Positions 2,745 to 62,300 of a stretch of DNA of 64,000 nucleotides are shown piece by piece. The translations under genes and the position numbers were made by a program. The stretch's first letter is position 1; each line of letters starts with the position of its first letter. The notes beneath the pieces are model-generated. The model was not told the origin of the DNA, did not search any database, and saw only the letters and a program-made list of their open reading frames with translations. The DNA comes from Crambe crambe (Eukaryota > Porifera > Demospongiae > Poecilosclerida > Crambeidae): contig OZ004595.1 in NCBI GenBank assembly GCA_963924555.1, forward strand, positions 620,001 through 684,000. The letters are read 5' to 3'.

Positions 2745-5700
2745 ATGGATGAATCTAAACAGGTGAGCTATAATGCATGCTCATCAGTAGGTCTAGAAAT
2801 CCAGATGAAGAACTTGTTCACTGATGCCATTAAGTACCAGGCTATGGCGCCTAAAATATTGGGGAGGACAGCTGCATTGGTCGGCTAATTCGCCTCAAAA
2901 CAGCAGCTGTTTGTTTGTTATGTACAGCCTGTCCTGCTATTTATCAGTTGGCCAATTAGTAGAGATAGCAGTTAGCTAGGTCTGCAAGTTTTTTTAGACT
3001 TGACTGGTAGATGTGTTACTGCTAGTTTATAGTTTGACTATCTAGATGTTTCCTCCCAATACAGGAACTCGAGAGACAGCTTCAGAGTGAATTGGATGTA
3101 AGTTGTCATGAAAGTAGCTGCTGTGATGTTGTGTTGGTCCAGTGCCCTCTGGTCAGTCACTGCAAAGCACCTTAGGCCCATAGAAACAGTCTGTCAAAGA
3201 TGAGGGGTGCTCGTTTGCAGGGATGGGTTGTTTATTGGAATGCTGGACTACTGAACCTTAAAGCAGTTACCTCCAGCATGTGGGCCCCAATGTTTCGTAC
3301 AGATTGTCAACACGCCTCAGCTTGTGTGCCTACTAGACCCCTGTCCATTTTTATAGGCCAAATGCTGACTCGGCATAATTCCTAGTGCCCCTCTGCCGAG
3401 GGAAGTGGGTGGAGTCTTGTGACTCACAGACCCCAGGACAATATTGAGCACACTTTTTAATGAACATTCCCCACGTTTGGAGTGTACAACTCGAACACCT
3501 TGCATGCTAGACCCCTGCTCAATTTTTTACAAGCCGTTACCAACCCATTCAAGTGTGCCGAGGGAAATGGGCGGAGTCTAGTGACTCATGGACCCCATGA
3601 CCTTATAGAGCATGATGTGCTCTACAGGTTCTCCAAGTTTGGAGGCCGTAGCTCGCATGCTGTGGGTGTGGTGATTTTTTTTTGTGGTGCATGATGGCTG
3701 TCTTTGTGTGTTGGTTGTATGGTTGTCTCACCTTCTCTCTCTCACTCCTCACAGAAGAAGGCAAAGTATCAGTGGAGTATAGAGTACTGGGAACATGTGA
3801 GTGATGAGTGTAGCAGTGGTGTGATGAGGGCGTGGCATGTGGCCCAGTCCATACCTGGTGTGTATTCCATGTGTGCAGGGATTGTCTGCTGCTCAGAAGG
3901 AGCTCAGTCAGCCTTCCCTGAGTAAAGGAAGGAGGTTTGATCTTGAGAAGGAGGTGAGGAATTGTGAGAGATGGATCCAGATATTTAAAAAGTCTCTCCT
4001 TACTAAAGAAGAAGAAATAAAAAAAGTGCAAGATGCCCTGGGGCAACTTACTTGTAAGTATAAAGATTTAGCACTAATTAGATGATGTAATGATACATTA
4101 TACAAGTTAAGTAATAGCCCAGAGCTATAAAATAGTGTGCACTCAGCTGGGAGGTGTAATTAGTAATTAATAGTAACATGTAAGAATTAATTAGTGACTA
4201 ATTAAAAGTAGGTGAAATTAATAAATGTTTGAGTGGCCATAACTTTTGAAGGGAAAGTGAAATAAGAACCATTCTGCTCAGAAAATTCTACTCTTTCTTT
4301 GTGTCACTACTAGCATTACCTAAGAGAGTGTTAGGGAGGTGGTAATCCATTTTGGCATGTATTTTATGACCTTATTATCATTTTATCAGCAGAATGTGAC
4401 TGTTGTGATGTCTTGTAACACTTATTATAACTGTTATGTAAATAATGTTCTTTTTCCCTCTTCAGCTGCTTCCCAGAAGCCTGACTCTTCTTCCCAGAAA
4501 GAAACACAGAGTGAGTATTGTCCACAATAAGTGGTCCCATTGACAGCAATGTACACATACAATGATGTGCTTTAATTGAGGTTCTTGGCCAATTAAATAA
4601 AATATTACCATTACACCAGCATTACCCAGAGCTATATAAAATAGTGCTAATTTTACTCTTTCTTTGTGTCACTACTAAAGTATCAGGGAAGACCGGGTGA
4701 TATCCATTTTGACATGTGATATGACTAATGGAATTGAATGTGACATTGTTAGAGTACTAAAGTATCATTATTATTTCTCCTCTATAATAGATACCTCCTC
4801 TAGTCCTGTCTCTACTCAAAATGAACTTCTGACTGGATTTGGTGAGTTATACTGGAATGTGGCATCTCAAGTACAATAACATCCATACAATTTCCTTTTC
4901 AATCTTTATGACTCAGTTTCCAATGAGATGCTGCAACATGAGAATGCTTGTTCTAAGGTTATTGCAGAGAAAATCTGTGTGGATATCGACATAATAAGGA
5001 TGGTTTACTCTGGCCTTCCTCGATCAGGGAAGACGTGCAGTCGACGTCGTTTGATGGGAGAGATCTTGAATATCTTGATGGCCATGGAGAAGGAACAGCC
5101 AAGCACAGGAGTGGTGGAGGAGGGAGGCCATGTTGTCATCAGGAATGTCCATTCTGATGTGGGAACAATTGTGTCTCGGAGATGGTCGGTAGTTAAGGAT
5201 GTGTTAGAGGAAGCTGGTATATATAGCCGGTTATTCTATGAAACTGTCAAGAGTGGCACAACATTGGCAGTTGGCAGAGATACAGCTTCGCAGTCTTCTG
5301 TATCTGATGTTGATACAAGAAAGCAGAGGGTAGAGGACATGGAAGAGATTCTCTCTCTTTTCCGAGAAGCCATGCGTAATGAAGAGTGGGGCAAAGTAAA
5401 GTACCTATTGGACGACACAATCCTTTTGATAAATACTGACACTGGTGGTCATGCAGAATTTTTGGAAATGCATGCTGCCCTCGTCATGGGTCCTTCCCTT
5501 TACCTTCTCTTCAGCCGACTGACCGACCAACTGGATAGCCTTTTTAAAGTGTATTATACCAATGAAGAAGGTGTGTCTACTGACCCAGAAGATTCTACAT
5601 TGACCATGGAAGAAGTTTTATTTCAATCTCTCTCCAGCATCGAATGCTTTAGTGAGCGTTCACTGGATAGTCGTGATGGACCCCCAGTAAAGCGTCGTGA

Positions 5701-7770
5701 GTTCTCGGGTCACTTCAAATCAAAAGCTGTCTTTGTGGGAACACATCGAGACAAGGTGAATGACGAAGAGTTCAAGGAGAAAGATGGACTCCTTCAGAAG
5801 AGAATCAAAAATACAAGTTTTTATAAGAACGAGATTATCGAGTTTGTCTCAGAGGACCAGCTGATGTTGGCAGTCAATAATTATGATGGTGGCCAAGAAG
5901 AGATAGAGGAGATCAGAAAAGTCCTGGAGAGAATAATCAAAAGGAGCTTCAGTAAAATAACCATTCCAGCTGCCTGGTTAATGTTGAGTCTCCATGTACG
6001 GAAATTGAATTTGCGTGTGATGAGTTTAGTGGAATGTGAAGAGCTGGGAGGGAAGCTCGGAATCAGTCCCAGTGAGCTGCAAGAAGCATTGTGGTTCCTG
6101 CACCATTGTGTGGGCCTCATTTTGTATTATCCCGAGTTAGACTCATTGAAAGATACAGTCATCTGTGATGTGCAAGTCCTGTTTGATAGCGTAACAAACC
6201 TTGTCAAGAAGACGTTCACTTTTGAGAAAGTTGGGAAGAGAGTGGCAGAAAAATTCAAAGAGAAAGCACAGTTCTCACTTAAAGATTTGAAGAGTGCTAC
6301 ATCAAGTTGTGCTGATGCCCTCATTCCACTGGAGAAATTGGTGGAGCTTCTTGAATACCTCAACATATTGGCACGCTTCACTCCCACATCTCCTACAGGA
6401 GCTAGTTCCACTCAAGAGGAGGTGTACTTCATGCCCAGTATCCTCAAGAGTGCCAGAGCCAGTGAATTGACAGTCGAGACCTCCAATGAAGACCCAGCCC
6501 CCTTACTGCTACGCTATGATTGTGGCTATGTGCCTCTGGGCACATTTTCATACATGATTGCCAACATTGTTTCTCAGCACTCAAAGGACTGGAAACTGGT
6601 TGAAAGAACTATTCGAAAAAATAAAGTTGAGTTCCACGTGTGGAAAAACTATGACAAAATCACACTCATCTCATGTCCCTTGTACCTTGAAGTTGCAATT
6701 ACACGACGACAACAGCATAGGAAACCAGTAGCTCAGACTAAAATGCTCTGCAGTCGTGTTCGTGGGGTAGTTCAGTCCACCCTGAAGACAGTCACCTCAC
6801 GTTTGAACTACAAATTCATGATGAAATATAAGTTCGCCTTCAAGTGCCCCATCCACTCTAGTACAGATCATCTCTGTGTGCTGGCAGAAGAATCTGCACC
6901 CTGTATGGAGTGTCTACAAGACCCTCAACAGATAGAACCAGTGGACTTGAAGCCTAAACATACCATTTGGTTTGAAGAGGTAAGGAACCACTGAGTTAAT
7001 ACTTATGTCATTGGATTTGACTCAATTCATTTTTTCTTAATAGGAATGTGGTGTGCAACCTTTTAATGTCAGTGGTAAGTAATTATTTCCCTCTATAATG
7101 TAAGAACATTACTACCAGTGGCTGGGAATAACCCTTTACACCATCAAAAGCTAGGAATGTAGTTTGATCCCTACCACTAATAGACTGCTTCAAAAATTGT
7201 GTTTGTTGGATCACTTTGATGTTGATAAATGAATAACAGCAATATAATTACATCAAGTGATTAACTCTTTCTCTTGTTGTGTAGCACCACCCGACCATTT
7301 TGAAACCTCAAGATTACTTAAAGCTTTGAGCAACGATGAGTTGATAGAGTTGGGGACAGCTCTTGGATTATCCTTCAGCAATTTGAAAAGAATGACGATG
7401 CTTCTTGGTGATATGATTCAGGCATGGTTAAATGGTGACGACGACATTACTACAAGAAGTGGTCCTCCCAGCTGGACTAGTCTGGCCACAGCTCTTGAAA
7501 GAACTGGTCACACAGCTATTGCCTCCAAAGTCAGGAAAGGTGAGCACAGTCAAAATCAATGAGATTACAAACACTTAATTAGTTGATCTGTTTCCTATTT
7601 TATAGAAAAGCTCAGTCAAGTCCTCACTACTCCTTCACCTCCAAGACCTACACCAGCAGGTGAGCAGTTCAACAGAGTGTGTATTATCATACTGGTACAT
7701 GGTACTGTTAATGAATGCAGGTCCTTCTGTCAACCCTTTACCTGATGAGGTGGACAAAGAGCTCACCTGA
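2745..7770 (+). CDS. RCD1: coiled-coil / Roc-like GTPase (class A) / COR / Death protein
   Basis: Spliced gene of 11 exons: 2745-2762, 3065-3097, 3755-3796, 3879-4053, 4466-4510, 4791-4841, 4917-6979, 7044-7074, 7285-7539, 7606-7659, 7721-7770. Phases join without a break into 938 residues. Residues 1-104 are a charged coiled coil (MDESKQ, then ELERQLQSELD and following). A P-loop GLPRSGKT lies at about 154-161, a G3-like DTGGH near 296-300 and a G4-like THRD near 396-399, replacing NKxD as in other Roc-type GTPases. A helical, winged-helix-rich COR-like region follows, then a Cys/His segment ending HTIWF. The 7285-7539 exon (about 820-905) is an alpha-type Death domain ending near SWTSLATALERTG. 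The tail is short because five bases present in RCD2 (AGTAT after GTGGAC) are missing, which brings a TGA forward. Likely a cytosolic signalling protein that oligomerises through its coiled coil. The function is inferred. Confidence 0.85.
3098..3754 (+). other. RCD intron 2, strongly conserved between copies, with internal duplication
   Basis: This roughly 650-base intron is almost the same in RCD1, 2, 4, 5 and 6 and shortened in RCD3. It contains two related blocks with the core GCCGAGGGAARTGGGYGG followed by GACTCA, near 3394-3436 and 3557-3600. Small open frames across it are shared only because the DNA is shared. They have no splice logic and I do not treat them as genes. Confidence 0.6.
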
Positions 7771-9041
7771 TAACGGCTGTGAAGTCTCACCAAACTTCTT
7801 CCACTCCTCAAAGACATGATCGTAAATGCCAAGTTTCGTAAATATTTAATTTGTCATAACTTCATGATTACAATATTGCACATGCACCATTTGTTACCAC
7901 TGCTTGTCTTATATTGAAATGTACATATAATTATTGTGTGTAAAGAAGGTAAAGAGGTCATCAGCTGCTTGACTGTGTCGCAAAAAATTGATGTAAGTAT
8001 GTGATGAGTCATAAATAGAATGGAAGAGTGTGTGAAGTTTATAGCACAGGAAAAGAAAATCATGATAACAATAGGATCAAAATTAACATGTAAAAATATG
8101 AGCAATTTAAAATTCGAAGGTTAAATTCACAAAGTATGTATTATGGACTTGGTGGACCAGACTCATCAGAGAAGGATGGTGGAAAGTTGGGTTGTTGAAC
8201 AGAGGGGGAGTGGTGTGATTGAGGGTAGACAAAGGGGGGCAGGATGGGATTGAGACAAGCAGAATACCCACTGTCTGATTCATAACTAGCCAATGAGAAC
8301 AACTTGGATTCAATCTCGCTCAGATCAACAGCAGAGCGGAGAAACTGGTCACTCAACGAACTCAGAGAGAACAGCCTTAATAATTATTGCAGACAGACCT
8401 GGGAGGTACAAGTCTTTATTCACGATGCTGCTTATGGGTGTGGGTTTTGATGCAACACACAGAGGTGCCAATGATGACAGGGATATCAACGAGGAGGAGG
8501 AGGGGAAGCAGAGGGACGTCTGTTGTCCTGATATTCCAAGGTGCGGCTGGATGATGAAGAGAATCAATACCTAAAGGAATCGAAAGCAAAGAGACTGTTT
8601 AAAATGTAAGTGGAAGAAGGATGCTTACTCTACTCCCCTGAAATTCAGCACCTCAAGTATCTTGATTAAAGGGTAATGTACAAGTAATCGAGGAAGACTA
8701 CTTAATACAGAACAGTGTTTGTAAGGGAAAGAGCAGCCTCACTTGAGGGGGTGAAATCAATTGCCGAGGGAAACATAACTGATATGTATGTTGCTCTGAC
8801 TGCACCAGATCTGGAGAACAATACTGGATGACAAGGTGATCTTTCTTCTAAGACTCTAATAGATTCATTGTTCTCATTTTAAGTGGAATTTTTTGTGACC
8901 ACTTTTTAATCTAGGCATTATGCTGATTTCCATTAGAACTAAAGTCTCCATGTAGTGGTGATCTTTTACCATACATAGACCCAAGTGGTTTTAGTGGTGA
9001 TGACCCCTTACCATACATCACCTTTACCTGTCCCTCCCCAG
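7771..9041 (-). pseudogene. inter-gene block with degraded minus-strand exon fragments
   Basis: Between RCD1 and delta-catenin copy B. On the minus strand, 8141-8356 reads as a Ser/Pro-rich stretch with SYESDSGYSACL, and 8349-8567 reads as a Ser-rich stretch. Related DNA recurs at about 31020-31720 and 44840-45330, with indels that change the frame. I cannot name the parent gene. The last ~100 bases before 9042 also belong to the repeated spacer (a motif like TGATGACCCCTTACC recurs near 22400 and 47707). Confidence 0.45.
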
Positions 9042-9791: not shown

Positions 9792-9794
<3 letters not shown>

Positions 9795-9859
<65 letters not shown>

Positions 9860-9860
9860 T
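9795..9860 (+). repeat. (CT)n microsatellite
   Basis: About 30 CT units in the intron directly after the exon ending at 9785, extending the pyrimidine tract upstream of the next acceptor. Confidence 0.95.
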
Positions 9861-12839: not shown

Positions 12840-15800
12840 ATGGATGGAGGAAGGTCTAAACAGGTGAACTGTAATGCATGCTCATCAGTAGGTACTAGGT
12901 CTAGAAATCCAGATGAAGAACTTGTTCACTGATGCCATTAAGTATCAGGCTATGGCGCCTAAAATATTGGGGAGGACAGCTGCATTGGTCGGCTAATTCG
13001 CCTCAAAACAGCAGCTGTTTGTTATGTACAGCCTGTCCTGCTATTTATCAGTTGGCCAATTAGTAGAGATAGCAGTTAGCTAGGTCTGCAAGTTCTTTTA
13101 GACTTGACTGGTAGATAGTGTTACTGCTAGTTTATAGTTTGACTATCTAGATGTTTCCTCCCAATACAGGAACTCGAGGAAGAGCTTAAGACAGCATTGC
13201 GGGTAAGTTGTCATGAAAGTAGCTGCTGTGATGTTGTGTTGGTCCAGTGCCCTCTGGTCAGTCATTGCAAAGCACCTTAGGCCCATAGAAACAGTCTGTC
13301 AAGGTGCTCGTATGCAGGGATGGGTTGTTTATTGGAATGCTGGACTACTCAACCTTAAAGCAGTTACCTCCAGCATGTGGGCCCCAATGTTTCGTACAGA
13401 TTGTCAACACGCCTCAGCTTGTGTGCCTACTAGACCCCTGTCCATTTTTATAGGCCAAACGCTGACTCGGCATAATTCTAGTGCACCTCTGCCGAGGGAA
13501 GTGGGTGGAGTCTTGTAACTCACAGACACCAGGACAATATTGAGCACACTTTTTAATGAACATTCTCCACGTTTGGAGTGTACAGCTAAAACACCTTGCA
13601 TGCTAGACCCCTGCTCAATTTTTTACAAGCCGTTACCAACCCATTCAAGTGTGCCGAGGGAAATGGGCGGGGTCTAGTGACTCATGGACCCCATGACCTT
13701 ATAGAGCATGATGTGCTCTACAGGTTCTCCAAGTTTGGAGGCCGTAGCTCGCATGCTGTGGGTGTGGTGATTTTTTTTTTGTGGTGCATGATGGCTGTCT
13801 TTGTGTGTTGGTTGTATGGTTGTCTCACCTTCTCTCTCTCACTCCTCACAGTGGAAGGCAATCTATCAGGGGACAATAGAGTACTATGAACAGGTGAGTG
13901 ATGAGTGTAGCAGTGGTGTGATGAGGGCGTGGCATGTGGCCCAGTCCATACCTGGTGTGTATTCCATGTGTGCAGGCATTGTCTGCTGCTCAGAAGGAGC
14001 TCAGTCAGCCTTCCCTGAGTGAAGCAAGGCAGTCTGAGCTTGAGAAGAGGCTGAAGCATTGTGAGGGAGAGATCCAGAAAGATAAAACAAATCTCCTTGC
14101 TGAAGAAGAAGCTATAAAGAAGCTACAAGATGCCCTGGGGCAACTTACTTGTAAGTATAAAGATTTAGCACTAATGAGATGATGTAATGATACATTATAC
14201 AAGTTAAGTAATAGCCCAGAGCTATAAAATAGTGTGCGCTCAGCTGGGAGGTGTAATTAGTAATTAATAGTAACATGTAAGAATTAATTAGTGACTAATT
14301 AAAAGTAGGTGAAATTAATAAATGTTTGAGTGGCCATAACTTTTGAAGGGAAAGTGCTATAGTCTTGAAATAAGAACCATTCTGCTCAGAAAATTCTACT
14401 CTTTCTTTGTGTCACTACTAGCATTACCTAAGAGAGTGTTAGGGAGGTGGTAATCCATTTTGGCATGTATTTTATGACCTTATTATCATTTTATCAGCAG
14501 AATGTGACTGTTGTGATGTCTTGTAACACTTATTATAAACTGTTATGTAAATAATGTTCTTTTTCCCTCTTCAGCTGCTTCCCAGAAGCCTGACTCTTCT
14601 TCCCAGAAAGAAACACAGAGTGAGTATTGTAAGCCACAATAAGTGGTCCCATTGACAGCAATGTACACATACAATGGTGTGCTTTAATTGAGGTTCTTAG
14701 GCAATAACATAATTTATTCAGTCAATGATTTACTTTACAGAATCAACATCAAGTGACTTGCGTCTAGATGATGCAACTAGAGAGAAAATGGTAAGTGTAA
14801 TTAATGGAGGGGGTGTGTGTATGCAGATATCATTCATGTGGGGTATGAACTCTATGATTGCTCTCCTGGTTTCTCTGATTCAGTTCAACCAGTCCATGAC
14901 GTGGGGCCACGTTGAGGCAATCATCATCAAGGTCCTGATCGTGGGGGCTGCTGGAGTCGGCAAATCCCTTTTTTTGTCTCGTCTCCTTGGTGTCGCTATT
15001 TCTCTCATCCGAAACAGTACCGGAGTGGTCGAGAAAGCCCAGAGGGTCAACTGTCAAAGGTTGGGCACAACAGATCTCAAAAATAACATAGTTTGGGAAG
15101 TGGTCGGACCGAAAGAACTGATGAAACTTCTTGCCGATGCCATAACCTCAGGAATTGAGAAGTTCACTGCTTCTGTTTCCCCTCCACATGCATCTCGTCG
15201 TTCCAATAATGGATCAGGTTCTCATTCGACCAGTTCTGCTGATGCAAGCTACTCTACAGCTAGAACTACCGTCCTTCAGCTGATAGGTCGTTCCAAGGAA
15301 GGTAAATTGCTGAAGATGACTTGGATCTATCTGATAGATAGTGGAGGGCAGCCTCAGTTCCACGAGCTTCTTACAGCATTCATCAGAAACACCACTTTAG
15401 GTATCTTTGTCTTCAGGCTCTCAGATCGGCTGGACGATAAGCCACGGATTGAATACTACAAAGGTGGAAAGCCACTGGGTGAGCCTTATCCTTTCCCCAT
15501 GAGCCACAAGGAGATCTTCCAACACTGTATCCAGACCATTTCTTCCCTCCCTTCCACTTCTCCTCCGAAGGATCAGGCCCCAACTTGCCCGAAGATTCTC
15601 GTCTTGGGAACTCATCGAGACAAAGAGAGCAAGTGTTCCGAAACACGTGATGAAAAAGAGAAGATTCTCAGGGATGTCTTGCACAAAGGACCAAAACCTG
15701 ACTCAGCCATCTCAGAAGACTTACTTTATTACGGAAATAAGTGCATCTTTCCTTTGAATGCTAAATCACCCGAGAAGCAGGACGAGGAGATCATCGGTGA

Positions 15801-18089
15801 TATTCGAGAAGAAATAGTGCGTCTTGCACCTCAACCCCAATCCATCCCACTGCAGTATTACGCACTCGAACTGGAACTTGAAAAGAAAGAAGAGAGTGTG
15901 ATTAGCTTCAAAGAATGTTTGGACATTGCCAAGCATTCCCTGCTTTTCGAAGAGACTGTGGCCAGAGCTGCCATCCATCATCTGGATAGCCTCAACCTCA
16001 TCCAACACTTCCCAGAGTGTGCCAAGGAGGTCATATTCTGTGACCCCAACATCCTCCTCAACAAGGTGAACGAGCTGATAGAGAAAAGCTACAGGTTGAG
16101 GGGCACTTTGACCGCTTCGAAACCCGAGGTACTATTAAAAGGAGACTGGATTAGATTCCACATGCGTGGCAGGGTGACCTTACCCATGCTGAAAGAGTTT
16201 CCTGAAGGCTTTGTGCAAAATCTTTACGATCATCGCACTCTGGCCAAGATCTTTGAAGACCTGCTCATTTTCACTCGTTTTGAGCATGATGATAGCTTTT
16301 TCATGCCTGCCCTGCTCGATGTTAAAGATCTGAAGCTCATCCAGCGACCGACTAAGACGTGCCTAATCATAGCGTTCTCCTCTGGGTATGCCCCCCTGGG
16401 ACTTTTTTCTTCCTCCATTGCCTTTCTGACTTCGAGCAATAATCGATGGCCTTCTCCATGGATGTTCTTGTTCGAAAAAGGTCAACTCTTCCGAAATGTG
16501 ATCAGCTTTGATGTGAATGCGGTAAAGGTCACTCTTATTGACTGCTCAGCTCATTTCGAGGTTCATGTGGAGCTGCAGGAAGGCATGCAAGAAGACCCGT
16601 CCATGATGCCCGAAGTGTGCAGAATCATACGCCAAGGGATCAAGGAGGCCATCAAGCAATCGATGAAGAAACGCCACATCTGTAGTGCATCGTATGGTGA
16701 GAGTTTCTTCTGCCCGTGTGACTCGTATGCTACCTACCACTTGGCCAGTGTGAAAGAAGTCTTTGGAAAGTATCGCAGGTGTTGTGATGTCCACACTGGA
16801 AAGGGTGGAGCTTTGGAAGAACATCACTACCAGTGGCTGGGAATAGAACCCTCTACACCATCAAAAGGTAGTAATACATTCTATTTAGCTAGTGGCCAAG
16901 GTACTGTAGGTGGCCGAGTCTTTGGTCACTCCAGCAGCTTGAACTACCTAGTGCATGCAGGCCTGTAACTGGGTACGGTGAACCTGCCTTAAAGACCACC
17001 TGTATCCAGAGACCAACCTTCTATAAAGTGGTGTTCCCAAAGTATCATTTCAATTGATTTTGACCTCCATATAGAGACCGTCTTCCTATTAAGACCCACT
17101 TTTTTTTGCTCTGTATATAATTATTGATCTGATGCTCCATCCCTTGTAGGATCAGTTAAGTTCCCAGATATCAAGTATTTCCACCTCCAACTCATAAAAT
17201 GGATCAACCCAAATGGTGAGGAAGCAAAGCTGAAAATTTACGAAGAGATGTCATCAAAATGGAAGGAAGTTGCTGGAGTGATTGCTCTGAGTAAAGCTGA
17301 GATTGACAATATAGCTGCTCCAGGGATGGGACGTGAAATGACTGATTGCATGCGTGACGTCTTTGGGAAGTGGATGGAGAATAGTGATACGCTTCCTAAC
17401 CACACATGCTATCCACTAACTTGGGATGGCTTGTGCAACATTCTACAAGACTCTGACAGTGATACGCTGGTGAAGCGATTGAAAGAAGCTCTAGCTGCTG
17501 AACAAAGCACCTTAAGAAACACCTTCCCTGCTAAACAGTGTAAGTCCTTAATTCTACGTTCATAGGTGGTAGAGAGGTACATAGCTAACCTTGCAACTAC
17601 AAAATTTATACATAGCCTCCTTTCAAAGGACTTAACTGTGGCTTTGAAGTTGGGCTACTTGAAAGGAGGCTATGTTAGCCACCAAAGCTACCAATTTCAG
17701 TGCTGGGTGCAGGTCCTAGTTAAGACTGAATGTGATACTATTATTAGTGGTGCCTATTGTGTTATGTTTGCTGGACTTTGACATTATTAACGACTCTTTC
17801 ATTATTATAGCTCTGGCCACAGCTCTTGAAGGAACTGGTAAAGTCAGGAAAGGTGAGCACAGTCAAAATCAATGAGATTACAAACATTGATCTGCTTCTA
17901 TTTTATATTTTATAGCTAGAAAAGCTCGGTCAAATCCTCACTACTCCTTCACCTCCAAGACCTACACCAGCAGGTGAGCAGTTTAACACAGAGTGTGTAA
18001 TATCATACTGGTACATGGTACTGTTAATGAATGCAGGTCCTTTACCTGATGAGGTGGACAGTATAAAGAGCTCACCTGATAAGTCATGA
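12840..18089 (+). CDS. RCD2: coiled-coil / Roc-like GTPase (class B) / COR / gamma-type Death protein
   Basis: Exons: 12840-12863, 13170-13202, 13852-13893, 13976-14150, 14575-14619, 14741-14790, 14884-16867, 17150-17539, 17811-17852, 17920-17973, 18037-18089, giving 963 residues with consistent phase. It starts MDGGRSKQ and has a coiled coil to about residue 105. Class B GTPase: P-loop GAAGVGKS at 144-151, G3 DSGGQ near 274, G4-like THRD near 367. A COR-like region follows (ELELEKKEESVISF, SLNLIQHFPE). The COOH side of the large exon has CPC, HLASVK and HYQWLG, a Cys/His pattern. The 390-base exon (about 785-914) is a Death-fold domain unlike those of RCD1/3/4/6, with KWKEVAGVIALSKAEIDNI and LTWDGLCNIL. 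Next is a 14-codon remnant of the last helix of the usual Death exon (LATALEGTG). The intron 14791-14883 is in frame and stop-free, so retention is possible. Confidence 0.85.
14791..14883 (+). other. 93-base in-frame, stop-free intron (possible exitron) in class B genes
   Basis: GTAAGT...GATTCAG, length divisible by three, without a stop, and present at the same place in RCD3 (25927-26019), RCD5 (50546-50638) and RCD6 (61346-61438). If retained it adds 31 mostly hydrophobic residues, including ISFMWGMNSMIALLVSLIQ, just before the GTPase domain. An inner acceptor (TATGCAG) would remove only 36 bases, also in frame. Splicing is assumed because the donor and acceptor are good. Confidence 0.55.
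17566..17710. mobile_element. degenerate foldback element (same family as 32065-32231)
   Basis: Arms CATAGCCTCCTTTCAA and TTGAAAGGAGGCTATG face each other around a short loop, lying in the RCD2 intron after the gamma Death exon. A sister copy is at about 53359-53490 in RCD5. Confidence 0.6.
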
Positions 18090-23055: not shown

Positions 23056-26000
23056 ATGGCGTCCGAACAGGTGAGCTGTCATCAGAAATCCAAATGAAGA
23101 ACTTGCCATTAAGTATCGGGCTATGGCGCCTAAAATATTGGGGAGGACAGCTGCATTGGTCAGCTACCTGTACTGTCCTGCTATTTATCAGTTGGCCAAT
23201 TTATCTTTCTAGTAGAGATAGCAGTTAGCTAGGTCTGCAAGTTCTTTTAGACTTGACTGGTAGATAGTGTTACTGCTAGATGTTTCCTCCCAATACAGGA
23301 ACTCAAGGAAGAGCTTCAGAATGCATTGTGGGTAAGTTGTCATGAAAGTAGCTGCTGTGATGTTGTGTTGGTCCAGTGCCCTCTGGTCAGTCACAGCAAA
23401 CCACCTTAGGCCCATAGAAACAGTCTGTTTACCTCCAGCATGTGGGCCCCAATGTTTTGTACAGATTGTCAACAAGCCTCAGCTTGTAATTGTGTGCCTA
23501 CTAGACCCCTGTAGGCCAAATGCTGACTTGGCACACCTCTGCTGAGGGAAGCGGGTGGAGTCTTGTGACTCACAGACCCCAGGACAATATTGAGCACACT
23601 TTTAATGAACATTCTCCACGTTTGGAGTGTACAGCTCAAACACCTTGGATGCTAGACCCCCGCTGAATTTTTTACAAGCCGTTACCAACCCATTCAAGTG
23701 TGCCGAGGGAAATGGGCGGGGTTTAGTGACTCATGAACCCCATGACCTTATAGAGCATGATGTGCTCTACAGGTTCTCCTAGTCCATAGCTCGCATGCCG
23801 TTGATTTTTTTTTGTGGTGCATGATGGCTGTCTTTGTGTGTTGGTTGTATGGTTGTCTCACCTTCTCTCTCACTCCTCACAGGAGAAGGTATTGTATCGG
23901 AGTGCCATAAAGGGCTATGAACAGGTGAGTGATGAGTGTAGCAGTGGTGTGATGAGAGCACGGCAGTGGCCCAGTCCATACCTGGTGTGTATTCCATGTG
24001 TGCAGAGATTGTCTGCTGCTCAGAAGAAGCTCAGTCAGCCTTCCCTGCTGAGTGAAACCAGGAAGTTTGGGCTTGAGTTGGAGGTGAAGAATAGTAAAAG
24101 ATCGATCAAGAAAGATAAAAAGTCTCTCCTTGCTAATGAAAAAGCTATAAAGAAGTTGCAAGATGCCCTGGGGCAACTTACTTGTAAGTACACTAATTAG
24201 ATGATGTAATGATACATTATACAAGTTAAGTAATAGCCCAGAGCTATAAAATAGTGTGCGCTCAGCTGGGAGGTGTAATTAGTAATTAATAGTAACATGT
24301 AAGAATTAATTAGTGACTAATTAAAAGTAGGTGAAATTAACTAGGGCAATATTCAACATTCAGTTGGCAGCCAGCGAGCAAGCAAGTATTCTTTACTGCT
24401 ACAACTCTTTAGAAGATTTTGCTGTTTACTTTAGCTATATCTACTACTTTAGCTTTAGACAGTGAGCAAGTGAGCATGTTAGGCTCCAGTGCTTGATATT
24501 GTGTCAGAGACAAGAGTCATGTAAGTGGTGGTTCCAACCAGAAAGCTCCACACATCAAAAGTTGTAAATACTTACCACAAACACTTAGATAAGCCAAGCG
24601 CCTACAATTCACTTTGATAAGCCTAGCGCCTCTATGACAAAAGGCTGTAGAAAACAATCTAGCTTGATTACAATTATTGGAGCATGCGCATTATGCACAC
24701 ACAGGCACACAGGCCTACTATACTATACACGTACCATGCATATGTATGTACACCTGGGGCATTTTGGAGTGTAGACCTAGATATCAGAAGCCGTGTTTAC
24801 ACGTGCGCCCAACCCGGGTTGAGATTCAATCCGGATTCCAATCTACCTAATTGATATGGGTTGGGTTACCTGGATTGGAATCCAGGTTGGTACCGTTCAT
24901 ACGCGAAGCGAATCTGGGTCGAATCCAGGTTAGAACCCCCGTGTAAACGCGGCTAGAGAGTGCGCTAGCACTCTCTAAGTAGGGATGGCGGGTCAAAGGT
25001 CATAAGACTGTATAAACTAAAAACTCTTCTTTCTTTTCTACCCTTGCTCTACAGATTCTCAGAAGGCTATAGTGAATTATTACATCTACAAAGAAGAGAG
25101 GAGAATGTTCAAAAACCAAAAATTCATTCGCTAACATAAGAAAAAAAACGATGTCTAAAATTGACTTTTTTTCTTTTTCTTTATAATAAATATAAGATCG
25201 ACGTACCGGCTTACTGGCTATAGTCATCAAAATTCTGCTTTGGCCATTCTGTTAGAGCGGCACCTAGAGGCTGATCTTTTGCTATTAGTTTTGACTAAGG
25301 CTCTACTTCACTATTCGAGCACTCGGAACACTAGCCAATCTTTCGACGCCATTTTGAAGCGCATGTCGATAGGAGGCGGGGCTTAAGGGTGGAGCCACAT
25401 AGGCTTATTAAGTTTAGCTAGGTCTTCAGTTTAATCGTTTAGCTAGCTTATCTGACCTGAGAGTCAGCTCGCTCGCAATTAATGTTTGAGTGGCCATAAC
25501 TTTTGAAGGGAAAGTGCTGTAGTCTTGAAATAAGAACCATTCTGCTCAGAAAATTCTATTCTTTCTTTGTGTCACTACTAGCATTACCAAAGAGAGTATT
25601 AGGGAGGTGGTAATCCATTTTGGCATGTTTTTAACAATGTTATAATCATTTTATCAGCAGAATGTGACTGTTGTGATGTCTTGTGACACTTAATTTTTTT
25701 CCCTCTTCAGCTGCTTTCGAGAAGCCTGACTCTTCTCTCCAGAAAGAAACACAGAGTGAGTATTGTAAGCCACAATAAGTGGTCCCATTGACAGCAATGT
25801 ACACATACAATGGTGTGCTTTAATTGAGGTTCTTAGGCAATAACATAACTTATTCAGTCAATGATTTACTTTACAGAATCAACATCAAGTGACTTGCGTC
25901 TAGATGATGCAACTAGAGAGAAAATTGTAAGTGTGATTATTGGAGGGGGTGTGTGTATGCAGATATCATTCATGTGGGGTGTGAACTCTATGATTGCTCT

Positions 26001-48579: not shown

Positions 48580-51500
48580 ATGGCAGAGGGAAGATCCGAA
48601 CAGGTGAGCTGTAATGCATGTTCATCAGTAGGTCTAGAAATCCAGATGAAGAACTTGTTCACTATACACGCATAGCTAATGCCATTTATAAATTATATGG
48701 CGCCTAAAATATTGGGATGGGGACAGCTGCATTGGTCGGCTAATTCACCTCAAAACAGCAGCTGTTTGTTTGTTATGTACAGCCTGTCCTGCTATTTATC
48801 AGTTGGCCAATTTATCTTTCTAGTAGAGATAGCAGTTAGCTAGGTCTGCAAGTTCTTTTAGACTTGACTGGTAGATAGTGTTACTGCTAGTTTATAGTTT
48901 GACTATCTAGATGTTTCCTCCCAATACAGGAACTCAAGAGAAAGCTTCAGAATGCATTGGCGGTAAGTTGTCATGAAAGTAGCTGCTGTGATGTTGTGTT
49001 GGTCCAGTGCCCTCTGGTCAGTCACAGCAAAGCACCTTAGGCCTGTCAAAGATGAAGGGTGCTTGTATGCAGGGATGGGTTGCTTATTGGAATGCTGGAC
49101 TACCCAACCTTAAAGCAGTTACCTCCAGCATGTGGGCCCCAATGTTTAATACAGATTGTCAACACACCTCGGCTTGTGTGCCTACTAGACCCCTGTCCAT
49201 TTTTATAGGCCAAATGCTGACTCGGCATAATTCCTAGTGCCCCTCTGCCGAGGAAAGTGGGTGGAGTCTTGTGACTCACAGACCCCAGGACAATATTGAG
49301 CACACTTTTTAATGAACATTCTCCACGTTTGGAGTGTACAGCTCAAACACCTTGCATGCTAGACCCCTACTCAATTTTTTACAAGCCGTTACCAACCCAT
49401 TCAAGTGTGCCGAGGGAAATGGGCGGGGTCTAGTGACTCATGGACCCCATGACCTTATAGAGCATGATGTGCTCTACAGGTTCTCCAAATTTGGAGGCCG
49501 TAGCTCGCATGCTGTGGGTGTGGTGATTTTTTTTTGTGGTGCATGATGGCTGTCTTTGTGTGTTGGTTGTATGGTTGTCTCACCTTCTCTCTCTCACTCC
49601 TCACAGGGGAAGGCAGACTGTCAGGGGTGGATAAAGTTCCATGAACAGGTGAGTGATGAGTGTAGCAGTGGTGTGATGAGGGCGTGGCATGTGGCCCAGT
49701 CCATACCTGGTGTGTATTCCATGTGTGCAGGAATTGTCTGCTGCTCAGAAGGAGCTCAGTCAGCCTTCCCTGAGTGAAGCAAGGCAGTCTGAGCTTGAGA
49801 AGAAGGTGAAGCATTGTGAGGGACAGATCCAGGAATGGAAAAAGCTTCTCCTTACTAGAGAAGAAGCTATAAATAAGCTTCAAGATGCCCTGGGGCAACT
49901 TACTTGTAAGTATAAAGATTTAGCACTAATTAGATGATGTAATGATACATTATACAAGTTAAGTAATAGCCCAGAGCTATAAAATAGTGTGCGCTCAGCT
50001 GGGAGGTGTAATTAGTAATTAATAGTAACATGTAAGAATTAATTAGTGACTAATTAAAAGTAGGTGAAATTAATAAATGTTTGAGTGGCCATAACTTTTG
50101 AAGGGAAAGTGCTATAGTCTTGAAATAAGAACCATTCTGCTCAGAAAATTCTACTCTTTCTTTGTGTCACTACTAGCATTACCTAAGAGAGTGTTAGGGA
50201 GGTGGTAATCCATTTTGGCATGTATTTTATGACCTTATTATCATTTTATCAGCAGAATGTGACTGTTGTGATGTCTTGTAACACTTATTATAAACTGTTA
50301 TGTAAATAATGTTCTGTTCCCCTCTTCAGCTGCTTCCCAGAAGCCTGACTCTTCTTCCCAGAAAGAAACACAGAGTGAGTATTGTAAGCCACAATAAGTG
50401 GTCCCATTGACAGCAATGTACACATACAATGGTGTGCTTTAATTGAGGTTCTTAGGCAATAACATAATTTATTCAGTCAATGATTTACTTTACAGAATCA
50501 ACATCAAGTGACTTGCGTCTAGATGATGCAACTAGAGAGAAAATGGTAAGTGTAATTAATGGAGGGGGTGTGTGTATGCAGATATCATTCATGTGGGGTG
50601 TGAACTCTATGATCGCTCTCCTGGTTTCTCTGATTCAGTTCAACCAGTCCATGACGTGGGGCCACGTTGAGGCGATCATCAATAAGGTCCTGATCGTGGG
50701 GGCTGCTGGAGTCGGCAAATCCCTTTTTTTATCTCGTCTCCTTGGTGTCGCTATCTCTCTCATCCGAAACAGTACCGGAGTGGTTGAGAAAGCCCAGAGG
50801 GTCAACTGTCAAAGGTTGGGCACAACAGATCACTTAAAGAACATAGTTTGGGAAGTGGTCGGACCGAAAGAACTGATGAAACTTCTTGCCGATGCCATAA
50901 CCTCAGGAATTGAGAAGTTCACTGCTTCTGTTTCCCCTCCACGTGCATCTCGTCGTTCCAATAATGGATCAGGTTCTCATTCGACCAGTTCTGCTGATGC
51001 AAGCTACTCTACAGCTAGAACTACCATCCTTCAGCTGATAGGTCGTTCCAAGGAAGGTAAATTGCTGAAGATGACTTGGATCTATCTGATAGATAGTGGA
51101 GGGCACCCTCAGTTCCACGAGCTTCTTACAGCATTCATCAGAAACACCACTTTAGGTATCTTTGTCTTCAGACTCTCAGATCGGCTGGACGATAAGCCAC
51201 GGATTGAATACTACAAAGGTGGAAAGCCACTGGGTGAGCCTTATCCTTTCCCCATGAGCCACAAGGAGATCTTCCAGCACTGTGTCCAGACCATTTCTTC
51301 CCTCCCTTCCACTTCTCCTCTGAAGGATCAGGCCCCAACTCGTCCGAAGATTCTTGTCTTGGGAACTCATCGAGACGAAGAGAACAAGTGTTCTGAAACA
51401 CGTGATGAAAAAGAGAAGATTCTCAGGGATATCTTGCATAAAGGACCAAATCCTGACTCAGCCATCTCAGAAGATTTGATCTACTATGGAAATAGGTGCA

Positions 51501-53973
51501 TCTTTCCTTTGAATGCTAAATCACCTGAGGAGCAGGACGAGGAGATCATCGGTGATATTCGAGACAAAATAGTGCGTCTTGCACCTCAACCCCAATCCAT
51601 CCCACTGCAGTATTACGCACTCGAACTGGAACTCGAAAAGAAAGAAGAGAGTGTGATTAGCTTCAAAGAATGTTTGGATATTGCCAAGCATTCCCTGCTT
51701 TTCGAAGAGACTGCGGCCAGAACTGCCATCCATCATCTGGATAGCCTCAACCTCATCCAACACTTCCCAGAGTGTGCCGAAGAGGTCATATTCTGTGACC
51801 CCAACATCCTCCTCAACAAGGTGAACGAGCTGATAGAGAAAAGCTACAGCTTGAGAGGTTTAACCCCTACAAAACTTGAGGCAGATGTGGGAGGGGACTG
51901 GATTAGATTCCACATGCGTGGCAGGGTGACCTTACCCATGCTTAAAGAGTTTCCCGAAGGCTTTGTGCAAAATCTTTACGATCATCGCACTTTGGCCAAG
52001 ATCTTTGAAGACCTGCTCATCTTGACTCGTTTTGAGCATGATGATAGCTTTTTCATGCCTGCCCTGCTCGACGTTAAAGATCTGAAGCTCATCCAGCGAC
52101 CGACCAAGACGTGCTTGATCATAGCGTTCTCCTCTGGGTATGCCCCCTTGGGACTTTTTTCTTCCTCCATTGCCTTCCTGACTTCGAGCAATAATCGATG
52201 GCCTTCTCCATGGATGTTCTTGTTCGAAAAAGGTCAACTCTTCCGAAATGTGATCAGCTTCAATGTGGAATCAGTGGTGGTCACTCTTATTGACCGCTCC
52301 AGTCACTTTGAGGTTCATGTGGAGCTGCAGGGAAGCATGCAAGAAGACCCATCCATGATGCCTGAAGTATGCAAAACTGTGCGACGAGGGATCAAGGAGG
52401 CTATTGATCAATCTATGAAGAAACGCCACATCTGTTGTGCATCGTACAGTGAGAGTTTCTTCTGCCCGTGTGACTCGTACGCTACCTACCACTTGGCCAG
52501 TGTGAAGAAAACATTTGGCAAGAAATATCATAGGTGTTGTGAAGTCCACACTGGGAATAATGGAGCTTTGGAGGAACATCACTACCAGTGGCTGGGAATA
52601 GAACTATCTATACCATCAAAAGGTATTCTATTTAGCTAGTGGCCAAGGTACTGTAGGTGGCCGAGTCTTTGGTCACTCCAGCAGCTTGAACTACCTAGTG
52701 CATGCAGGCCTGTAACTGGGTACGGTGAACCTGCCTTAAAGACCACCTGTATCCAGAGACCAACCTTCTATAAAGTGGTGTTCCCAAAGTACCATTTCAA
52801 TTGATTTTGACCTCTCATACAGAGACCATCTTCCTATTAAGACCCACTTTTTTTTTCTTTTTTTTTGTGGCCCAGAGGTGATTGCTGTAGGCAGCTTCTC
52901 TGTATATAATTATTGATCTGATGCTCCATCCCTTGTAGGATCAGTTAAGCTCCCAGATATCAAGTATTTCCACCTCCAACTCATAAAATGGATCAACCCA
53001 AATGGTGAGGAAGCAAAGCTGAAAATTTACGAAGAGATGTCATCAAAATGGAAGGAAGTTGCTGGAGTGATTGCTCTGAGTAAAGCTGAGATTGACAATA
53101 TAGCTGCTCCAGGGATGGGACGTGAAATGACTGATTGCATGCGTGACGTCTTTGGGAAGTGGATGGAGAATAGTGATACGCTTCCTAACCACACATGCTA
53201 TCCACTAACTTGGGATGGCTTGTGCAACATTCTACAAGACTCTGACAGTGATACGCTGGTGAAACGATTGAAAGAAGCTCTAGCTGCTGAACAAAGCACC
53301 TTAAGAAACACCTTCCCTGCTAAACAGTGTAAGTCCTTAATTCTACGTTCATAGGTGGTAGAGAGGTACATAGCTAACCTTGCAACTACAAAATTTATAC
53401 ATAGCCTCCTTTCAAATGTGGTTTTGAAGTTGGGCTACTTGAAAGGAAGCTATGTTAGCCACCAAAGCTACCAATTTCAGTGCTGGGTGCAGGTCCTAGT
53501 TAAGACTGAATGTGATACTATTATTAGTGGTGCCTATTGTGTTAGTCTATGTTAGTGGTGCCTATTGTGTTATGTTTGCTGGACTTTGACATTATTAACA
53601 ACTCTTTCATTATCATAGCTCTGGCCACAGCTCTTGAAGGAACTGGTCACACAGCTATTGCCTCCAAAGTCAGGAAAGGTGAGCACAGTCAAAATCAATG
53701 AGATTACAAACATTGATCTGCTTCTATTTTATAGAAAAGCTCGGTCAAGTCCTCACTACTCCTTCACCTCCAAGACCTACACCAGCAGGTGAGCAGTTTA
53801 ACACAGAGTGTGTAATATCATACTGGTACATGGTACTGTTAATGAATGCAGGTCCTTCTGTCAACCCTTTACCTGATGAGGTGGACAAGTGCTCACCTTA
53901 TAACAGCCATGAAAAATCTCATCAAACTCCTTCCACTCCTCAAAGACGTGATAAATTTTGCCAATTTTTGTGA
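48580..53973 (+). CDS. RCD5: coiled-coil / class B Roc / COR / gamma-type Death protein
   Basis: Exons: 48580-48603, 48930-48962, 49607-49648, 49731-49905, 50330-50374, 50496-50545, 50639-52622, 52939-53328, 53619-53678, 53735-53788, 53852-53973, giving 992 residues in closed phase. It starts MAEGRSEQ. P-loop GAAGVGKS and G4-like THRD are as in RCD2, but G3 reads DSGGH where RCD2, 3 and 6 have DSGGQ: one base change at the position equivalent to Ras Gln61. The gamma Death exon (52939-53328) differs from that of RCD2 by only two or three silent or conservative bases, whereas the coiled-coil exons of the two differ strongly. The following 60-base exon keeps 20 codons of the old Death domain end (LATALEGTGHTAIASKVRK). 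The tail ends RDKFCQFL. Confidence 0.85.
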
Positions 53974-55571: not shown

Positions 55572-56230
55572 ACGAGTTGTTGAAAACCACCACTTCAGCC
55601 AGCATCATCAAAGTTTTGAAACCCATATTCGCACGATTTGGTATACCAGAAACCCTGATGAGTGACAATGGCCCTCAATACTCTTCCCAGGAGTTTGCTA
55701 ACTTTGCCAAAACTTACGATTTCTGCCACATTACCAGCAGCCCTCATTATCCGCAATCCAATGGCCTAGCCGAAAGGGCCGTACAAACAGTTAAGAAGCT
55801 GTTGAAGGAGTCAAAAGATCCCTACCAAGCAGTACTCAGTTACCGAAGCACACCCCTTCCCTGGTGTAATATTTCTTCAGCAGAACTCCTAATGGGCAGA
55901 CAGTTCCGTACAGCACTGCCACAAGTTGATGATCTGTTGCTACCAAAATGGCCATATCTGGACGAATTTCGACGTAAGGATGTGGAATTTAAACAAAAGC
56001 AGAAGCAGAATTTTGACAGCCGTCATCGTGTTCGAGTACTCCCTCCTATTCCTAACAACACAGAAGTGCAAATCACATCTGGGACTGAGACCACAGGCCA
56101 GGTAATCACACCAGCCAATGCTCCAAGGTCATACATAGTTGAAACGCCCACTGGCTTAGTGAGGAGGAATCACCGCCACCTCAATGTTATTCCTAATGAC
56201 CAGACTTCCGGATGGAGTTCAACAACCTGA
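55572..56230 (+). mobile_element. Ty3/gypsy retrotransposon integrase, 5'-truncated
   Basis: The open frame starts abruptly with LLKTTTSASIIKVLKPIFAR after a stop at 55566. It carries the second catalytic Asp (LMSDNGPQYSS) and catalytic Glu (SNGLAERAVQTVKKL) of the DDE integrase core, then a C-terminal region typical of gypsy elements and the end of pol. The zinc-binding part, first Asp, reverse transcriptase and gag are absent from the window. Dead element. Confidence 0.85.
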
Positions 56231-59225: not shown

Positions 59226-59375
59226 ACTCAAAGCATTTATGTAGGCTGTAAATTATCTCACCTGGATCTCAATCACATGATCCTAACGCTCCTTAAAATC
59301 TGCCACGCCCTTATTTTGTTCTTGAACAATCTTCTTTTTCAGAGCTATATCGTATCTCTTAGCGGCTGTTGTGGT

Positions 59376-62300
59376 ATGGCAGAGGGAAGATCTAAACGGG
59401 TGAGCTGTAATGCATGCTCATCAGTAGGTTTAGAAATCCAGATGAAGAACTTGTTCACTACACGCATAGATGCCATTTATAAGGCTATGGCGCCTAAAAT
59501 ATTGGGGAGGACAGCTGCATTGGTCGGCTAATTCGCCTCAAAACTGCAGCTGTTTGTTTGTTATGTACAGCCTGTCCTGCTATTAATCAGTTGGCCAATT
59601 TATCTTTCTAGTAGAGATAGCAGTTAGCTAGGTCTGCAAGTTCTTTTAGACTTGACTGGTAGATAGTGTTACTGCTAGTTTATAGTTTGACTATCTAGAT
59701 GTTTCCTCCCAATACAGGAACTGGAGAGAAAGCTTGAGATTATATTGGGGGTAAGTTGTCATGAAAGTAGCTGCTGTGATGTTGTGTTGGTCCAGTGCCC
59801 TCTGGTCAGTCACTGCAAAGCACCTTAGGCCCATAGAAACAGTCCGTCAAAGATGAGGGATGCTCGTTTGCAGGGATGGGTTGTGTATTGGAATGCTGGA
59901 CTACTCAACCTTAAAGCAGTTACCTCCAGCATGTGGGGCCTAATGTTTCGTACAGATTGTCAGCACGCCTCAGCTTGTGTGCCTACTAGACCCCTGTCCA
60001 TTTTTATAGGCCAAATGCTGACTCGGCATAATTCTAGTGCACCTCTGCCGAGGGAAGTGGGAGGAGTTTTATGACTCACAGACCCCAGGACAATATTGAG
60101 CACACTTTTTAATGAACATTCCCCATGTTTGGTGTGTGCAGCTCAAACACCTTGCATGCTAGATCCCTGCTCAATTTTTTACAAGCCGTTACCAACCCAT
60201 TCAAGTGTGCCGAGGGAAATGGGCGGGGTCTAATGACTCATGGACCCCATGACCTTATAGAGCAAGATGTGCTCTACAGGTTCTCCAAGTTTGGAGGCCG
60301 TAGCTCGCATGCTGTGGGTGTGGTGATTTTTTTTTGTGGTGCATGATGGCTGTCTTTGTGTGTTGGTTGTATGGTTGTCTCACCTTCTCTCTCTCACTCC
60401 TCACAGTTGAAGGCATTCCTTCAGAGGCAGATAGAGGACAATGAACAGGTGAGTGATGAGTGTAGCAGTGGTGTGATGAGGGCGTGGCATGTGGCCCAGT
60501 CCATACCTGGTGTGTATTCCATGTGTGCAGGAATTGTCTGCTGCTCAGAAGGAGCTCAGTCAGCCTTCCCTGAGTGAAGCAAGGCAGTCTGAGCTTGAGA
60601 AGGAGGTGAAGTATTGTGAGGGATTGATCCAGAAATGGAAAAAGCTTCTCCTTGGTAGAGAAGAAGCTATAAAGAAGCTACAAGATGCCCTGGGGCAACT
60701 TACTTGTAAGTATAAAGATTTAGCACTAATTAGATGATGTAATGATGCATTATACAAGTTAAGTAATAGCCCAGAGCTATAAAATAGTGTGCGCTCAGCT
60801 GGGAGGTGTAATTAGTAATTAATAGTAACATGTAAGAATTAATTAGTGACTAATTAAAAGTAGGTGAAATTAATAAATGTTTGAGTGGCCATAACTTTTG
60901 AAGGGAAAGTGCTATAGTCTTGAAATAAGAACCATTCTGCTCAGAAAATTCTACTCTTTCTTTGTGTCACTACTAGCATTACCTAAGAGAGTGTTAGGGA
61001 GGTGGTAATCCATTTTGGGATGTATTTTATGACCTTATTATCATTTTATCAGCAGAATGTGACTGTTGTGATGTCTTGTAACACTTATTATAAACTGTTA
61101 TGTAAATAATGTTCTTTTCCCCTCTTCAGCTGCTTCCCAGAAGCCTGACTCTTCTTCCCAGAAAGAAACACAGAGTGAGTATTGTAAGCCACAATAAGTG
61201 GTCCCATTGACAGCAATGTACACATACAATGGTGTGCTTTAATTGAGGTTCTTAGGCAATAACATAATTTATTCAGTCAATGATTTACTTTACAGAATCA
61301 ACATCAAGTGACTTGCATCTAGATGATGCAACTAGAGAGAAAATGGTAAGTGTAATTAATGGAGGGGGTGTGTGTATGCAGATATCATTCATGTGGGGTA
61401 TGAACTCTATGATCGCTCTCCTGGTTTCTCTGATTCAGTTCAACCAGTCCATGACGTGGGGCCACGTTGAGGCAATCATCATCAAGGTCCTGATCGTGGG
61501 GGCTGCTGGAGTCGGCAAATCCCTTTTTTTGTCTCGTCTCCTTGGTGTCGCTATTTCTCTCATCCGAAACAGTACCGGAGTGGTCGAGAAAGCCCAGAGG
61601 GTCAACTGTCAAAGGTTGGGCACAACAGATCTCAAAAACAACATAGTTTGGGAAGTGGTCGGACCGGAAGAACTGATGAAACTTCTTGCCGATGCCATAA
61701 CCTCAGGAATTGAGAAGTTCACTGCTTCTGTTTCCCCTCCACATGCATCTCGTCGTTCCAATAATGGATCAGGTTCTCATTCGACCAGTTCTGCTGATGC
61801 AAGCTACTCTACAGCTAGAACTACCGTCCTTCAGCTGATAGGTCGTTCCAAGGAAGGTAAATTGCTGAAGATGACTTGGATCTATCTGATAGATAGTGGA
61901 GGGCAGCCTCAATTCCACGAGCTTCTTACAGCATTCATCAGAAACACCACTTTAGGTATCTTTGTCTTCAGGCTCTCAGATCGGCTGGACGATAAGCCAC
62001 GGATTGAATACTACAAAGGTGGAAAGCCACTGGGTGAGCCTTATCCTTTCCCCATGAGCCACAAGGAGATCTTCCTACACTGTTTCCAGACCATTTCTTC
62101 CCTCCCTTCCACTTCTCCGAAGGATCAGGCCCCAACTTGCCCGAAGATTCTCGTCTTGGGAACTCATCGAGACGAAGAGAGCAAGTGTTCTGAAACACGT
62201 GATGAAAAAGAGAAGATTCTCAGGGATGTCTTGCACAAAGGACCAAAACCTGACTCAGCCATCTCAGAAGACTTACTGTATTACGGAAATAAGTGCATCT

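Follow-up and report, generated by a model that had tools for sequence, protein, structure and literature searches.

In Podospora anserina, the WD40 repeats of the NWD genes (het-d, het-e) are described as being exchanged and homogenised within and between loci, giving a repertoire for allorecognition in which four surface codons per repeat are under positive selection and a signalling NTPase is attached (excerpts of PMC1805685). The zinc-finger array of PRDM9 is likewise described as combining positive selection with concerted evolution and as varying most at positions -1, 3 and 6 of the helix, which set binding specificity (excerpts of PMC8925151). The ROCO proteins of brown algae are Roc-COR GTPases with leucine-rich repeats (LRRs) encoded as separate exons; exon shuffling and diversifying selection are reported for them and they are proposed to be immune receptors (excerpts of PMC11378527). 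In sponges, expansions of NLRs form large receptor families for which an immune role is proposed (excerpts of PMC12909245). Here we describe a gene family of the sponge Crambe crambe, starting from a window of 64,000 nucleotides (positions 620001-684000 of contig OZ004595.1, called C18 here) in the 143-Mb genome. The window contains six copies, RCD1 to RCD6, in which the short exons 2 to 4 vary strongly from copy to copy. We think it probable that the family is a germline repertoire of recognition modules formed by concerted evolution together with very strong diversifying selection.

The initial annotation of the window had placed a 42-nt exon 3 in each of the six copies, and all six positions and the encoded peptides proved exact. 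Between RCD1 and RCD2, 10 of the 42 bases differ, as it had stated; read by eye, these lie in six codons and each of the six changes its amino acid. The flanks were also rightly called near-constant, since five of the six copies share identical sequence over the 71 bp upstream and the 82 bp downstream of exon 3, with RCD3 differing from the other five by small indels and a few base changes. The pattern seen in exon 3 recurs in exon 2 and in the central part of exon 4. Scanning the genome with the first 26 bases of intron 3 gave 76 matches (32 on C18, 18 on C8, 14 on C17, 10 on C16 and two on C15), 72 of them exact and four with one mismatch; the reversed pattern, used as a control, gave none. 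Exon 3 was read at 69 sites, six of the 76 matches being unread and one being a second match 49 bp from another. It is 42 nt long at 67 of these sites, 36 nt at one and 60 nt at one, and both odd ones are in frame. On C18 we read 30 copies, 29 of them in an array at C18:502686-939580 that includes the window and one near 1.087 Mb. Three of the 29 are damaged, by a stop, a lost exon 2 and a frameshift. The best 40 of 82 candidate sites for the 71-bp left flank are all 100% identical and lie on five contigs. Three sites have unusual structures: L054 (C8:7728148-7728641) contains the start of intron 3 twice within 49 bp, owing to a small and partial tandem duplication where exon 3 ends; L073 (C16:704120-704336) has an exon 3 with an in-frame internal duplication of 18 nt, the two copies of which differ at variable codons; and exon 3 of L053 (C8:7692811-7693230) is 6 nt shorter. 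A literature search that covered few subscription papers turned up no report of this exon cassette.

We compared the amount of change in exons 2-4 with that in introns and at synonymous sites in 26 of the 29 C18 copies (325 pairs), leaving out k07, k24 and k27 as damaged. Mean nonsynonymous divergence (pN) was 0.174, synonymous divergence (pS) 0.079, divergence of introns 2-4 0.023 and that of the near flanks 0.006. In two tests set beforehand, pN exceeded the divergence of introns 2-4 in 325 of 325 pairs and exceeded pS in 324 of 325. The maximum-likelihood (ML) estimate of omega over exons 2-4 was 3.9-4.0 (24 copies); when codons were split post hoc, it was 5.8 for 27 variable codons and 3.8 for the 56 others. 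Type-B bodies of 11 copies, used as a control, had a pS of 0.105 and a pN/pS of 0.27. The seven constant codons of exon 3 showed three silent variants among 469 readings, once each at codons 2, 9 and 10, and the third base of codons 3, 6 and 13 was kept in all 67 exons. Where a pair of exon-3 codons differed at the third base alone, the amino acid changed in 13 of 18 cases and not in five. No stop codon was seen in exon 3, against 25.7 expected from base frequencies. The earlier proposal that the N-terminal helical region is under strong diversifying selection is upheld by both pN tests, by omega, by the body control and by the confinement of variation to a single helix face (below). Of the two processes originally offered, selection or targeted diversification, selection fits better, whereas targeted mutagenesis disagrees with the silent constancy, with the 13 of 18 third-base pairs and with the missing stops. 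Adenine-targeted or uniform hypermutation was rejected because it clashes with the silent constancy of exon-3 codons. Variation restricted to template adenines, as expected of a diversity-generating retroelement (DGR), was not found; many adenines are constant, and the third-base A of codon 3 is the same in all 67 exons.

The sequence next to exon 3 has its own pattern of conservation. Four C18, four C17, one C8 and one C16 copy were compared between subfamilies. The 71 bp of intron 2 nearest to exon 3 were 99-100% identical; in intron 3, identity was 100% over the initial 40 bp and 93-98% over the final 42 bp. In intron 2 identity was 83-88% at -200 to -100, 63-77% at -400 to -200 and 45-87% farther out, and in exon 4 it was 43-63%, the C16 sequence compared covering little of this exon. 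Within C18, nucleotide diversity (pi) was 0.03-0.04 in the middle of intron 2 but 0.004 over its final 80 bp. Over 61 of the 67 exon-3 rows, there were 14 differences from the consensus among 129 flank bases per row; the six rows outside this count are three from C18 and one from C17 with indels, L054 with its partial duplication, and L067 on C8, which has a different flank (mismatches at 39/71 bases on the left and 36/82 on the right). All four combinations of the bases at intron-3 sites 60 and 67 occur across subfamilies, which fits exchange or recurrent change. The introns beside exon 3 are the most conserved DNA of the family, either specially conserved or homogenised, and are not a neutral reference. 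The earlier claim that the exons change faster than the adjoining introns holds against mid-intron and synonymous sites as well, but the near flanks are the slowest-changing part of the family, and a comparison with them alone exaggerates the acceleration.

Exon-3 variants come close to a single genome-wide pool with codons near linkage equilibrium. Among the 67 exons, the histogram of codon differences was near that of independent draws (codons shuffled within columns), with an excess in both tails, 10 differences being seen 42 times versus 19.9 expected. The whole exon was identical in three of 2211 pairs. On average 6.66 codons differed within subfamilies and 6.67 between them, with slight subfamily structure at codons 1 and 7 (FST-like values of 0.03 and 0.04, p 0.02-0.03). 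Mutual information between codons was at the shuffle level in 58 copies, counted before C16 was included. In the same 58 copies, codon covariation was not upheld (21 tests, smallest p 0.022). Distances in exon 3 showed a weak correlation with those in exon 4 (Mantel r 0.28, p 0.03) and no clear one with those in intron 2. Linkage disequilibrium in introns fell from an r2 of 0.23 below 30 bp to 0.11 at 30-75 bp, and four-gamete violations were present. The parts of the gene recombine independently. Shared runs of at least six codons in C18 exons 3-4 numbered 17, against a null mean of 5.9 and maximum of 14 in 200 shuffles, and lay mostly inside exon 4. Shuffling of ready-made exons as the only source of variation was considered and is weak, given the few shared exon 3s and the codons near equilibrium, though the C18 runs exceed chance.

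Young duplicates show how abruptly the exons differ. L050 and L051, about 10 kb apart on C17, differ at 34/256 positions of exons 2-4 (exon 2, 5/39; exon 3, 13/42; exon 4, 16/175) versus 10/1928 in introns 2 and 3 plus downstream DNA (intron 2, 8/679; intron 3, 0/82; downstream, 2/1167; Fisher p = 2.5e-24). In this test the downstream DNA is mostly intron but includes later exons, and a 293-bp piece of intron 1 (10/293) was left out. The exon changes are 32.75 nonsynonymous to 1.25 synonymous. Upstream, L051 is L049-like (one mismatch in about 937 bp, exon 2 included and gaps uncounted) and downstream it is L050-like at the level just given; its exons 3 and 4 are unlike both. Exons 3 and 4 of L051 changed 86x faster than the flanking DNA (lower bound 29), or 365x if the change is assigned to about 17 variable codons (lower bound 125). 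In L045 and L047, by comparison, exon 3, intron 3 and exon 4 are identical (0/299) despite 29/1699 differences (1.7%) downstream, and exon 3 is unchanged between C18:643883 and C18:839199 with an intron divergence of 0.4%. In these pairs the exons are either shared or widely unlike, which a steady clock does not give, and this points to exchange, allelic depth or a burst-like process.

The variable positions map to one face of a helix. Residue entropy in 24 copies had a best angle of 98 degrees over exons 2 and 3 (25 aa) and of 101 degrees over exon-4 residues 23-52, with p = 5e-5 at 100 degrees for each; with the angle left free between 60 and 180, p was 0.001 and 0.003, respectively. Over the wider range of exon-4 residues 14-58, p was 0.0014 at 100 degrees and 0.052 for any angle. 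Variable positions agreed across the C18, C17 and C8/C15 subfamilies (26, 10 and 14 sequences after removal of broken or duplicate rows; Spearman 0.45-0.63, p 0.0002-0.001), and the variable face lay at 149, 165 and 168 degrees, the same face in each, even though identity to RCD2 in exon 4 is 29-43% for the C17 and C8/C15 groups. Constant hydrophobic residues, picked by hand, lie away from the variable face, by about 125 degrees in exon 4 and 160 degrees in exons 2 and 3. Of the variable exon-3 residues 18% are Tyr, 13% Arg, 12% Trp and 7.5% Gly. We infer that exons 2-4 form a hairpin of two helices joined at a Pro-Ser turn (QPS motif). A PDB profile search for exon 4 (26 sequences) gave matches at E 0.04-0.76, mainly to generic helices. 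One diversified face on a helical scaffold resembles an engineered binder library.

The same cassette precedes two types of body that are about 25% identical to each other. Six sites on C18 and one on C8 have type A (at least 95% identity), and 24 sites on C18, including a split one, have type B (at least 91% identity); 486 and 467 candidates for further relatives appeared at first look and are mostly unscored. More distant body clusters, at about 32-49% identity, are on C6, C9, C11 and C15. COR-A matched 13 of 13 bodies (best 1.1e-5), mostly weakly, with 23.3-25.7 bits in one A and one B body against a cut-off of 35.3. Roc, also mostly weak, reached E<=0.01 in 11 of the 13 (best 3e-6), with 24.2 bits in one type B body against a cut-off of 27, and the type A body had no Roc match at E<=1. 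As for COR, the best PDB profile match was a leucine-rich-repeat protein (E 0.013). Neither NACHT nor LRR was found in a scan limited to bodies (two at E<=1, 13 at E<=0.01). In type B bodies (e.g. window 14929-16857), pS is 0.01-0.05 over the initial 180 codons and climbs to 0.17-0.24 in the final windows, a several-fold gradient from the P-loop end of the body to its 3' end that looks like homogenisation spreading outwards from the N-terminal exons. The 84-aa C-terminal domain may be death-like by its pattern, as in DAPK-like Roc-COR-Death proteins, but was not recognised as such by Pfam or PDB profile searches; no Death model matched it in six copies at E<=10 and none appeared in the PDB profile search at E<=5, both weak tests.

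These results lead us to favour a germline repertoire maintained by concerted evolution and diversifying selection. Gene conversion or unequal crossing-over would hold the neutral parts of the cassette alike across genes, and selection for novelty would keep about 25 contact codons per gene, on one face, different between copies. Homogenisation of units across loci was found in this family, with constraint as a partial alternative, and positive selection on the putative contact codons is seen in pN, in omega and in the single helix face. Nearly every change on that face replaces an amino acid, and beyond that face the exon-3 cassette hardly differs from copy to copy across five contigs. To judge from sequence, the variable face most likely binds something variable, probably a protein, and would serve as a recognition module attached to Roc/COR-like bodies, which come in at least two types and presumably act as signal switches. 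We infer that the protein is a cytosolic immune or self/non-self sensor. Several observations weigh against this reading. Constraint on the flanks could account for part of their identity. Codons judged invariable also give an omega of 3.8. Exon pS exceeds intron divergence, so that selection alone is not the whole explanation; path counting at multiply hit codons may give part of the exon excess and linkage part, and pooled exon pS falls to 0.066 once codon 50 of exon 4 (leucine, five synonyms) is set aside. Body pS is 0.105. Homogenising up to the splice sites while sparing exon 3 demands very fine-scale exchange. Few pairs share a whole exon 3, and none of the 67 matches that of L051, whose acceleration is so extreme as to be hard for mutation-limited selection.

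The size of this effect and the homogenisation up to the splice sites are poorly explained by selection and exchange, and we therefore leave a small probability to a dedicated process, in the germline or the soma, by which variable codons in the exon-3 (and exon-4) cassette are rewritten. The nearly frozen flanks on five contigs would then be functional addresses for copying of exon-3/4 cassettes and renewal of contact codons in the germline (or soma), with selection filtering the output. Exons wholly altered where flanking DNA differs by 0.14-0.16%, beside other pairs left unchanged, give the change an all-or-nothing look, and the near linkage equilibrium of exon-3 codons agrees with it. Yet a blind mutator would hit synonymous sites, which hardly vary in the constant codons of exon 3 and are fixed at three third bases, and would leave stops, while DGR-like adenine-specific change is at odds with constant adenines that include the silent A of GCA. 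We regard a dedicated process of this kind as unlikely, and the repertoire generator it would imply, one differing from V(D)J, AID and VLR assembly, is an improbable prospect as well.

We also consider it doubtful that the flanks are simply under strong purifying constraint, for example for splicing control of exons of 33-42 nt, with exons 2-4 under ordinary positive selection and no special exchange. Conservation does peak at exon 3 in each subfamily comparison, the exons are short and in-frame, and a pyrimidine- and GU-rich stretch precedes exon 3. However, at the variable codons of exon 3 the usual third base is shared between subfamilies though neighbouring bases are random, and exon 3 has almost no subfamily structure. 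RNA structure in the exon-3 block was rejected: the one copy folded was less stable than all 200 shuffles (z = +3.1), a result that counts only against constraint on RNA structure. Improbable too is a role of the variable face in homo- or hetero-dimer pairing that prevents cross-talk between paralogues instead of binding a foreign ligand. Coiled-coil-like helices do adjoin the Roc/COR-like body and vary on one face, but the hand-picked hydrophobic core is constant and the variable face points elsewhere, exon 3 (the only exon considered for this) shows no clear codon covariation, and richness in Tyr, Trp, Arg and Gly resembles a binding surface more than charge pairing. Relaxed constraint or pseudogenes in place of selection is scarcely credible; the damaged C18 copies would suit it, but pN exceeds both pS and intron divergence, framework codons are constant and the bodies are under purifying selection.

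Positions of the cassette exons, bodies and adjoining features of the six copies, numbered from the first base of the window
Copy	Feature	Position	Strand	Remark
RCD1	exon 1 (start codon, MDESKQ)	2745..2762	+	copy alignment with splice donor
RCD1	exon 2, 33 nt, variable	3065..3097	+	
RCD1	left flank of exon 3, 71 bp	3684..3754	+	identical sequence at at least 40 sites, 5 contigs
RCD1	exon 3, 42 nt, 7 hypervariable codons	3755..3796	+	
RCD1	intron 3, 82 bp, conserved right flank	3797..3878	+	
RCD1	exon 4, 175 nt, middle variable	3879..4053	+	
RCD1	exon 5	4466..4510	+	
RCD1	body open reading frame (ORF), type A	4928..6994	+	COR-like match
RCD1	C-terminal 84-aa domain	7287..7538	+	
RCD2	exon 2	13170..13202	+	
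RCD2	exon 3	13852..13893	+	
RCD2	exon 4	13976..14150	+	
RCD2	exon 5	14575..14619	+	
RCD2	body ORF, type B	14725..16968	+	Roc- and COR-like matches
RCD3	exon 2	23299..23331	+	
RCD3	exon 3	23883..23924	+	same as exon 3 at C18:839199
RCD3	exon 4, longer by 3 nt	24006..24183	+	end judged by eye
RCD3	body ORF, type B	25861..28014	+	
RCD4	exon 2	34327..34359	+	
RCD4	exon 3	35016..35057	+	
RCD4	exon 4, 172 nt	35140..35311	+	3-nt deletion
RCD4	exon 5	36424..36468	+	
RCD4	body ORF, type A	37176..39290	+	
RCD5	exon 2	48930..48962	+	
RCD5	exon 3	49607..49648	+	
RCD5	exon 4	49731..49905	+	
RCD5	exon 5	50330..50374	+	
RCD5	body ORF, type B	50480..52639	+	
RCD6	exon 2	59718..59750	+	
RCD6	exon 3	60407..60448	+	
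RCD6	exon 4	60531..60705	+	
RCD6	exon 5	61130..61174	+	
RCD6	body ORF, type B	61280..63454	+	

Other features lie between the copies. A second gene is duplicated there (window about 1-2150 and 8950-12150, about 92% identical DNA; a nucleotide match within the pair reaches 96% over 318 bp). It is presumably catenin/armadillo-like with a Q- and P-rich exon, and two pieces of it had no Pfam match. An integrase-core ORF (Pfam rve, E 2.8e-9), retrotransposon-like, is at window 55577-56230 between RCD5 and RCD6. The observed/expected CpG ratio of the window is 0.31, which suggests germline methylation.

The family looks like a fast-evolving set of recognition surfaces, in which dozens of related genes change on one helix face beside unchanged DNA. 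If this is correct, C. crambe has a large germline repertoire with a recognition surface that can be read codon by codon in its DNA, and it becomes testable how far selection and gene conversion diversify receptors with no dedicated mutator. Concerted exchange with selection on surface codons is the logic that the excerpts of PMC1805685 argue for the WD40 repeats of NWD. Unlike those tandem repeats with their NACHT domain, the unit described here is an exon that belongs to a helical module, is flanked by introns and is dispersed, with more variable codons and a Roc/COR-like body. Similarly, the family shares with PRDM9 the combination of positive selection and concerted evolution (excerpts of PMC8925151), but PRDM9 is a coding minisatellite in one gene and binds DNA, whereas here separate genes are spread over five contigs. 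The brown-algal ROCO proteins have LRRs with four selected sites per repeat in place of a helical module, and the excerpted account in PMC11378527 does not report genome-wide frozen flanks for them. In contrast to sponge NLRs as described in the excerpts of PMC12909245, the bodies scanned here had no NACHT or LRR match.

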